From contig NC_089422.1 of assembly GCF_013426205.1 (NCBI RefSeq), forward strand, positions 248,001 to 312,000: a stretch of DNA of 64,000 bases, given 5' to 3'. Shown one piece after another: positions 47,137-50,539 of this stretch. The notes below the pieces were generated by a model that searched no databases, had not been told where the DNA came from, and was given only the letters and a program-made list of their open reading frames with translations. Positions within the stretch are counted from its first letter, which is position 1. Each line of letters opens with the position of its first letter. The translations under genes were made by a program, and so were the position numbers. The stretch is from Metarhizium brunneum (taxonomy: Eukaryota; Ascomycota; Sordariomycetes; Hypocreales; Clavicipitaceae).

Positions 47137-50100
47137 CTAACTGTTCAAGTAAACAGCCGAAAGCACACTTGTCACATCCTTACTCGACGCAGAAATAACA
47201 TTCTCAGACGCAGTCGCGGTCCTCCAGCTCCCAAGCCCAACAAACCGCCCATGAACAGAATAATACGCTCCCACCATTTTACTCCTGCAGACCATGCGCT
47301 CCTCGTCCCAGAACCAGTTGACAGACCGCACCTTCTGCAACGGCTGCAGCACGTACTGCGCCGTACAAGAGCGCAAGTCGGCCGTCTTCATGGATTCGAG
47401 AATGCGGCACCACTCGGAGACGGACATGTCCCTGCCCAGCAGAATCCCAGATCCTCTCGCCAGACGGAACGGCTTAAGAATGTACCCATCCTTGATTCCG
47501 GGATCCGCGTAGCTGGCATCGAGAAGCTGGCGCAGGCGCTCACAGCCCGGCAGTATGGTCGGCACGATGCCCTGCTCGAGGATCCGCGCCTGCGCCAGAG
47601 TAAGAACGCCGTGTTTGTGCACAAGCGCGTCCAGCTCCTGCCGCAGGATGCCGAGGATCCGCTTGTCGTGGGCGATGAAGACGCTCCGCATGTCGTTGAC
47701 GCTCCGCATGGCAATGTGTCGCACCATGTCCGGATCCAAGGCGAAGAGTTCAAAATCGTACAGTTGGCATCCTACCTGGTGCACCTCTTCCAGGACCCGT
47801 CCCTCCACGGTAATCAGCTTCAAGGGCCGCTTGGTCACGGCCGGGTCGGCGCCCCAGACGCAGTAGAGGGAAAATCCCGTCGGTTCAGAACCGCTGGGGA
47901 TCAACACGAGACTCGACGGCTTTACCAATCTTGGTCTCATGCCAGTTCGATGCTCTACGAGGCCAAATAGAGGACTGTCTTTTGGAAAGTCGGACGTCTG
48001 TCCGACAAAGTGAATAGGAACCGACGGGTCAAACAGCTGAAACAGGCTGTCACGGAGCTTCGTGTAATCCGTTGCTGGCTTGAGCAGCGGAATGCTCCAC
48101 GGCAAGCCGGCCAAGGCTCCGTAGGCACTCGCCGCGAAATGAAGGAAGTTGATGGGGAACCGGCCGTTGATCTCGCAGACGCGAAACTGGGGGACGGCGT
48201 GCTCTTCCGCGGCGAGTATCAGCATGTCTGGTCTCAAGTTACCCTGGTGGCCCTTGTAGCCTCGGACGAAGCCTTTGTCGGAGCCCTCGTCAATCCACCT
48301 GAGCAGCTTTTCCACTCGGGGCTCAAGCGGCATGCGTCCCGGCAAGTTGGCATCCACGTCTTTCCACCACCGTTCAACAACGTTGTCAAGGGCCGCGGCT
48401 AGCGCTTCGTGAAAGCGTTCGACATTCTGGACAAACTGGACTGGTAGAACAGCTGGGTATGGATTGAGTCGCCGTGAGGCTCCAGGGAGCTGTCCATATT
48501 GGCTTGTGCTCTTCAGGAGATTCTGCTGCATCAAGTCCCGATCTGCCGCTCAAACTTGTGCGTCTACTTTCTCGGGAGGAGCAAGTCTCTCCATACTGTT
48601 GCTTCCGGCTAGACATATTTGAAGCAGCCACGGGCTCGTTTTGCAGAGGATATTCGGCACCTCTGTGTCCACAAGCTTGAAGCGCTATCTCATCTTGTTA
48701 GTTGACCCGAGGTGGTGCATGTTGACGCTGGGAGACGACTTACACCGTCTAGCGACGAAATCAGTCTCATTGTGATGAACGACTTGAACAACATGGTATC
48801 CCTCAAGAAATACTGGTAAATCTGCCTTCCCAGAGCATTATTTTCGACGTCAAGGGTATCAGCCAGCGCGGACCGCACGATGCCCCATCCATCGTGGTCT
48901 CTCTCCAACTCCAACGCATACATCATGTATCCAATGTTGTTCTGAATAAGGGCGTGGTGCACTCTGTCCCATACCTGGTGGCTGTCATCCGTGCTCGAGG
49001 CCTCAAGACCCGTCACATCGAATCCTTGGGCTACGAGACTCGCTCCGTGAAGTTTGACGCCTGCCAGGTCGCGTATAGCAAATCCCTTGATGGCTCTTGT
49101 CCTTTTGCAGATGCGGACAATGGAGTTTTGGCCATGAAACTCGAGTCCAACTCGGTGTCGCACCAGAGGATCCAAGGCAAGAGACAAGAGATGTTGGACA
49201 TAACTGCTCGCCGCCGATTAGCTCCTGCCGTGCCAACTAGCAGGATTCATGGGCCACAAACCTCTTGAACCAGCGCACTTTGTCGGCCGTGGTATGCAGG
49301 TCGAAGAGCACCTCGGCGTACGTCCGGGAGCCTCCCATTGGCTTTTCCATCAATGCGGAAGAGAGTATCAGCGCTTCGTTATTTTCTTTGGCCCTAGACT
49401 CCAAATTCTCCCTCAGTATGCAAGTCATGTACCGAGCCTCGGCCATGTCTTGCTGATTGCCAGTCACGGCGGCAACCTCGCCAACTATCCACAGGTTTGG
49501 CGGGGATATCTCCTTGAGAAGCCAGGTCAACTTGGGCGCTGCATCTGCAGACCAGCACGGAAGGACGCGCAGTGCGGACGTAACGAGGCATGCCAGTGAA
49601 AACTTGACGTCGTACGCAAAACCCGGGATAGAAACCGTTCGCATGGCCGCCTGGGCCACGGCACCATTGGGTACTGTCTCGATTAACTCGGCCTCGGGGA
49701 AATGATGCAGCAAAGCTGGGAGATGCTGCGTTAGACAGGGAACTGTGGTGTTTCCTTGGGAGCTGGCCACGGAGATTCCGAAATGCTTCATCATGGATTC
49801 AATGAGTTTCTCAAAGGGTCCTGCTGTGCGGACTGATGTGCGGGGGACAGTGACGAACGAAATATCTGGATTCAGCATGCCGGGGAGATGTTCCGGTCCA
49901 ACCGGCTTCAACAAGCGGTTGGCAATACATGTTCGATGGAACTTAGACACATTTAGCAACATTGCCGTGTGGACAGAAACTTGTCAAGCCTACCGGATGT
50001 GTTGGGTGGCCCGCCACCACAGACCTCTCCCAATCCAAGAATGAGGAGTCCAGGTCAAGGGTGGGCGTCTGCCAGCCATGCTCCATCCATTTCTCTGCGA

Positions 50101-50539
50101 AGGCAGTCAATATAACATGGTCCTGGATGTTGAGGCAAGGCGTTGTCGTGTGCTCACCTAGCATGGCTGCAGAATTGCGCAGCTCTTGCACAACTGATGT
50201 CGTCATGGCCTCACTACAGTCAAGCCACACCGAGATAAACTCAAAGATGGCACCTGGATCGTCTTGGAGAGCCTCATTATTGCCGGAGCAGAGTGTGACA
50301 GGAAGCTCAAGGTCATTGGGACGCAGATGGCCTGTCGTGATAACACCATGCACTGCAGAAAGAGTGAGCCAGCGGTCTGCATTCCCCTCCCTCTGTCCGG
50401 TGATGCGCGGTCGACGCGTGGCAGAGTCGTGAGATTCGTCAAGAAAATCCAAGCTTGCCAATCCTTCGTTGACCAGCTGCGCAAGTAGACGTTTAGTCGT
50501 CTCGCCTCTAGCCCTAGCTGCGTAGTTGGAAGCAGACAT
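47137..50539 (-). CDS. NIS siderophore synthetase joined to an ATP-grasp-like enzyme
   Basis: Preferred model: exons 50539-49994, 49941-49262, 49203-48744, 48684-48597 and 48542-47137, 1059 residues. Residues 1-590 are an IucA/IucC synthetase: GHPTHP (177-182), which runs into FHRT only after splicing, EFHGQN (430-435) and IRDLAGVKLH (452-461). This family adenylates a carboxylate and couples it to an amine or alcohol. From about residue 618 a second enzyme begins (NPYPAVLPVQF), with VCEINGRFPINF, DGYILKPFRLARGSGILLG, like the ATP-binding Lys and Gly-rich loop of ATP-grasp ligases, and GAYYSVHGRFVGLG. If the fourth intron (48596-48543, GTATGG...GGCAG) is not spliced, a TGA at 48552-48550 ends a 606-residue synthetase and the second enzyme would start at 48531, 18 bp on, in the same frame. 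Divergent from a cystathionine-gamma-synthase-like gene. Confidence 0.85.

Follow-up and report, generated by a model that had tools for sequence, protein, structure and literature searches.

Structure of the locus

The window, a stretch of 64,000 nucleotides from Metarhizium brunneum (contig NC_089422.1, positions 248,001 to 312,000), contains a pair of divergent genes. The first is a fusion gene on the minus strand (47137-50539), in which a synthetase of the non-ribosomal peptide synthetase (NRPS)-independent siderophore (NIS) type is followed by a Cp1B-type ATP-grasp ligase; the second, on the plus strand, encodes a pyridoxal phosphate (PLP) enzyme. The features of the pair are as follows.

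50158..50539, minus strand: exon 1 of the fusion gene, start of the NIS half (ATG at 50539; splice set by comparison with M. majus protein P0001)
50095..50157, minus strand: intron 1, 63 nt (comparison with M. majus P0001; branch motif TTGAC 16 nt before its end)
49994..50094, minus strand: exon 2, with GHPTHP at its end
49262..49941, minus strand: exon 3, NIS core (Pfam)
48744..49203, minus strand: exon 4, with EFHGQN and RDLAG, the FhuF-like C-terminal part of the NIS half (Pfam PF06276)
47137..48684, minus strand: exon 5, comprising the end of the NIS half, the start of the ATP-grasp domain, an in-frame TGA and the remaining ATP-grasp domain
48550..48552, minus strand: the in-frame TGA
47137..48549, minus strand: 470 open codons downstream of the TGA, Cp1B-type ATP-grasp ligase
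48543..48596, minus strand: 54-nt intron presumed in the first-pass annotation, unsupported by conservation and splice signals
50540..51266: intergenic region between the divergent genes, 727 bp
51267..53312, plus strand: cystathionine-gamma-synthase-like PLP enzyme, 601 aa, modelled with five exons (51267-51371, 51425-51519, 51582-52214, 52269-52610 and 52682-53312; Pfam PF01053 on two open reading frame (ORF) pieces)

The five exons of the fusion gene were separated by introns of 63, 52, 58 and 59 nt. The first of these corresponded to 21 residues that are absent from M. majus P0001, and a YTRAY branch motif was present 16–18 nt from the acceptor in three of the four accepted introns, while in the fourth it occurred only far upstream. 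A 1059-residue model proposed in the first-pass annotation was abandoned, because it retained the 63-nt intron (50157-50095) unspliced and depended on the unsupported 54-nt intron. Exon 5 continued in a single frame from the end of the NIS half into the second enzyme, broken by the TGA at 48552-48550; the NIS open frame therefore comprised 585 residues up to the stop, followed by the 470 open codons. The ATP-grasp domain did follow the synthetase without a promoter-sized gap and in phase with the last NIS exon, as had been claimed, but the claim of one uninterrupted frame for both domains holds only if the unsupported 54-nt intron is accepted.

The NIS half contained the GHPTHP, EFHGQN and RDLAG motifs and matched the Pfam domains IucA_IucC (3e-15, 56.9 bits, cut-off 25) and FhuF (3e-13, 51 bits, cut-off 25.2). 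It was the single PF04183 match in a scan of the genome (37,771,916 bases, 7 contigs). The NIS half of P0001 produced one NCBIfam match, to FslA, which was below cut-off, and AsbB was matched in PDB (E = 3.9e-4). The rhizoferrin synthetases (Rfs, FslA), AcsD and AsbB have NIS domains and motifs in common with the fusion, although all of these matches were weak. None of these four enzymes is known to have an ATP-grasp half.

The second enzyme was identified as ATP-grasp by sequence and predicted structure, as first proposed, and resembled Cp1B in both sequence and fold (PDB 9cjn). A good predicted structure was obtained when this half was modelled alone; a structure of the whole fusion, predicted from 16 sequences, was poor (predicted local distance difference test score, pLDDT, 51.8) and was not used. 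Equivalents of the Cp1B active-site residues R139, D141, E163 and N165 were retained, according to an alignment with numbering mapped by hand, and the active site was kept throughout the family.

Two more Cp1B-like genes were observed in the genome (C5, ~328.9–330.4 kb, and C1, ~5.401–5.403 Mb), with 35–40% identity to the domain in the window. Neither was associated with an NIS gene, given the one PF04183 match genome-wide, nor with a nearby PLP match among the matches listed; a Haem_oxygenas_2 protein was situated near the C5 copy.

The in-frame stop codon

The TGA occurred about 25 residues downstream of a motif near which stand-alone ATP-grasp relatives start, and therefore it interrupted the ATP-grasp domain itself and not an inert linker. 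The next ATG was found 18 bases past the stop. Among 19 aligned relatives, 17 had a letter in the corresponding column and all 17 had the same sense residue; P0009 and P0002 were gapped.

Splicing of the presumed 54-nt intron (48596-48543) would join both halves and produce an intact fusion protein in the M. brunneum strain, as its excision preserves the frame and deletes the TGA, and GT and AG ends are present. However, the donor (GTATGG) was weak, there was no YTRAY branch motif, and the stretch was coding in the predicted M. majus, M. robertsii and other-genus proteins, across which it could be aligned and was conserved. The intron was rejected on these grounds and splicing of this kind was considered improbable. 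An alternative intron of 42 nt was also rejected, being too short and situated inside the same conserved stretch.

The stop affected a single codon within an otherwise intact frame, which would be consistent with an error of assembly. Against this, the genome report gives the theoretical Illumina coverage of the trimmed reads as ~105x and describes four rounds of Pilon (PMC7842015), and sequencing error was considered unlikely because the assembly had been polished in this manner.

The evidence was more evenly balanced over whether the fusion is a pseudogene in the M. brunneum strain, its function having been ended by a recent nonsense codon, for which the odds seemed about even. The position of the TGA, in a column with one residue common to the 17 relatives, favoured this interpretation. 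Decay was examined at 210 columns without variation among the non-Metarhizium rows, each column being filled in at least 9 of these 15. The NIS half of the window departed at 3 of 108 such columns and its ATP-grasp half at 2 of 101, which was not above M. majus (5/108 and 3/101); in the ATP-grasp half there were 4 departures for P0028 (of 101) and 2 for P0029 (of 93). The NIS half could also still be made whole. Hence, the TGA aside, the window did not display excess decay, which suggests either a recent stop or continuing use. M. guizhouense P0002 was different, with departures at 4 of 100 invariant columns in the NIS half and 11 of 83 in the ATP-grasp half, and its end resembled a product of the window in another reading frame. 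This was a further point in favour of a pseudogene, and it indicates that decay may recur in the genus Metarhizium.

Distribution of the fusion and its partner

A search for the same fusion in other fungal genomes, as recommended in the first-pass annotation, recovered 27 ascomycete proteins with the fused query (7,995 candidates scored), all 27 with PF28486 and at least one NIS domain, although this choice of query, with its limits on length, is biased towards fusions, and some matches were partial. The ATP-grasp-half query recovered 61 proteins, both fused and unfused. Each homologue row represented a cluster at 90% identity, such that absence cannot be deduced from a missing row. From these sequence predictions, intact fusion copies exist in relatives. 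The statement that no fungal enzyme with this architecture had been described was correct for the literature matches listed, none of which described a fusion of NIS and ATP-grasp enzymes; however, related sequences were already present in databases under names such as 'aerobactin siderophore biosynthesis'.

Phylogenetic analysis retained 65 of 83 rows (82 found plus the window); rows that covered fewer than 340 residues were dropped, six fused ones among them. All 23 retained fused rows, with the window counted as fused, were placed within a clade of 45 rows (support 100/100). Of the 20 rows outside this clade, 15 had an N-terminus of their own, while five lacked theirs and may be fused or unfused. 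A single origin of the fusion would be the simplest reading of the tree, though no proof of it.

P0076, P0077 and P0078, from Fusarium lateritium and F. venenatum, combined a methyltransferase domain with a piece of ATP-grasp sequence and may be annotation artefacts. When bacterial and archaeal genomes were scanned for this domain with one peptide pattern, two ATP-grasp loci were identified (23% identity, from 24 matched stretches), with no ORF of ~600 residues directly beside either. In a Chloroflexi metagenome-assembled genome (L002 7074-9119) a TauD-type oxygenase was directly upstream of the Cp1B-like gene, while at the other locus the gene was followed by an AMP-binding match below cut-off. 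These loci were reminiscent of the bacterial E-64-like clusters mentioned in PMC12568646.

The partner gene was also conserved. An incomplete, 545-residue model of the PLP enzyme showed 95% identity to M. robertsii P0083 over 93%; the best NCBIfam model for P0083 was BesB (NF042918), at 138 bits far short of the membership cut-off of 800. Locus tags of PLP homologues adjoined those of fusions in Fusarium zealandicum, F. poae, F. sambucinum, Neonectria ditissima and N. punicea, while the two genes occurred on contigs of the same listed size in Cadophora sp. DSE1049, Dichotomopilus funicola, F. sporotrichioides, Aspergillus falconensis, A. pseudotamarii, Talaromyces islandicus and Cladobotryum mycophilum. 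Among the matches listed (120 of 299 rows), therefore, at least 12 of 28 fused proteins (27 from the fused query and P0069 from the ATP-grasp-half query) were paired by consecutive tag or same-size contig, and 16 showed neither sign. For Cadophora gregata, F. flagelliforme, A. lentulus and P. angulare, the PLP homologue in the matches listed was on another record. Pairwise distances for the fusion and the PLP enzyme across 13 species were correlated (r = 0.77; 0 of 5,000 permutations as high), with the window entered through its NIS half only, and this may partly reflect shared species history.

The intergenic region (50540-51266) contained no ATCWGATAA, HGATAR or CCAAT motif, a weak result given that ~0, 1.1 and 1.4 respectively are expected by chance.

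Proposed function and relation to known systems

Taken together, the domains, the ATP-grasp fold, the retained active-site residues, and the conserved fusion and PLP neighbour led us to interpret the locus as a conserved ascomycete gene pair, in which a bifunctional carboxylate ligase and a PLP gene would make a small citrate-type pseudopeptide. We would give this interpretation a probability of roughly 0.6. In NIS enzymes the carboxylate is activated as an adenylate and transferred to an amine or alcohol, and in ATP-grasp enzymes the activation proceeds via an acyl phosphate; the idea of a bifunctional ligase is compatible with what is known of the chemistry of the two families. The NIS domain would act on a small polycarboxylic acid, with citrate as the likeliest candidate, adenylating one carboxylate and coupling it to an amine; the Cp1B-type domain would phosphorylate a second carboxylate of the same acid and couple it to an amino acid. 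Put most simply, a polycarboxylic acid would receive two amide bonds, the unusual amino-acid unit coming from the PLP enzyme. This enzyme, encoded by the divergent gene, probably uses gamma-substitution to make the amino-acid unit or to attach it. A metallophore or other bioactive metabolite would result, and a siderophore role is possible. In the sequenced strain, the TGA early in the ATP-grasp domain would mean that mainly the NIS half is made, so that the pathway is probably cut short or inactive.

NRPS-free formation of amide bonds is described as rare among fungal natural products in PMC12568646, which also covers close parallels. Cp1B, which couples a dicarboxylic acid with an amino acid, and Cp2B of the E-64 pathway (PDB 9cjn) share family, fold and four active-site residues with the C-terminal half; Cp1B is a stand-alone enzyme with trans-epoxysuccinate as substrate, whereas the domain described here is fused to an NIS synthetase (PMC12568646). 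In the NK13650 pathway the same two enzyme classes are proposed to make amide bonds in one fungal metabolite: AnkE (NIS) for the amide in NK13650B, and AnkG (ATP-grasp) for joining aspartate to NK13650D. In that text AnkE and AnkG are named as two enzymes, in contrast to the fusion, and the likeness was drawn from their description (PMC12568646). Citrate was suggested as the scaffold because of this parallel and the below-cut-off match to FslA. We take AnkD of the NK13650 pathway to be a PLP enzyme that adds homoserine.

Several observations weigh against the proposed bifunctional ligase and its partner. The fusion frame is interrupted by the TGA in the sequenced strain, and several of the 27 fused matches are partial, P0025 and P0027 holding ~72 ATP-grasp residues. 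Predicted proteins lacked an NIS domain in 22 of the 45 clade rows, such that the fused label requires 14 changes on the tree; in 14 of these 22 the first residues belong to the NIS domain or the joining stretch, which suggests partial predictions, while the eight that start later may be partial or not. Relatives with two clearly separate genes had been named in the first-pass annotation as a reason for doubt, and M. robertsii P0029 and A. pseudocaelatus P0025/P0044 are indeed annotated as separate proteins, but P0029 starts within the conserved joining stretch. The share of species history in the distance correlation belongs here, as does the missing GATA-type site between the genes (weak, with ~1 expected). 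The literature search found no assay of any family member. Finally, no cytochrome P450 gene and no gene for an arginine-containing cyclodipeptide synthase such as AnkA was recognised beside the pair among the selected ORFs scanned.

The NIS half alone might make an ordinary rhizoferrin-like siderophore, with the ATP-grasp half as an accessory. The FslA match of P0001 and the database names of relatives as siderophore synthetases are in accordance with this, as is the description of a cluster in M. brunneum V275 as a non-NRPS siderophore cluster (PMC11457142). However, the family as a whole retains the ATP-grasp active site and the PLP partner is conserved, and the lack of a GATA site is a further, weak objection; this explanation appears rather doubtful. 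The V275 cluster is probably the fusion locus, because there is only one PF04183 match in the M. brunneum genome. Within the genus it was said to be limited to M. brunneum and M. robertsii (PMC11457142), which conflicts with the fusion homologues of M. majus and M. guizhouense. An NI-siderophore cluster has also been noted in Cladobotryum mycophilum (PMC10989895), and a Cladobotryum protein, P0015, is a fusion homologue. Where these sources describe the two clusters, neither an ATP-grasp half nor a product is mentioned (PMC10989895, PMC11457142).

If the gene pair does encode a bifunctional ligase and its partner, a more specific, and tentative, possibility is an NRPS-free two-gene assembly line in several ascomycete orders, where a homoserine-derived unit introduced by the PLP enzyme would be linked to citrate by the NIS domain and the ATP-grasp domain would cap the citrate with an amino acid, making an undescribed family of citrate pseudopeptides. 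A single polypeptide with adenylating and phosphorylating carboxylate ligases, and one partner gene kept across distant ascomycetes, would offer a testable route to a new metabolite class; the fusion is a possible biocatalyst for polycarboxylic acids, and the stop codon in one strain provides a natural comparison.

Elsewhere in the window, a 476-residue open frame close to the fusion gene (44595-46025, minus strand) had no Pfam match and contained a tryptophan-rich motif twice. A citrate synthase frame of eukaryotic type (18129-19608, minus strand; part 18676-19608 scanned) adjoined an isocitrate-lyase family gene (20618-22492, plus strand) at a distance of ~25 kb from the fusion; the two are possibly a methylcitrate pathway pair. 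A flavohaemoglobin-like gene (10810-12150, minus strand) scored just above the NCBIfam cut-off for nitric oxide-inducible flavohemoprotein.
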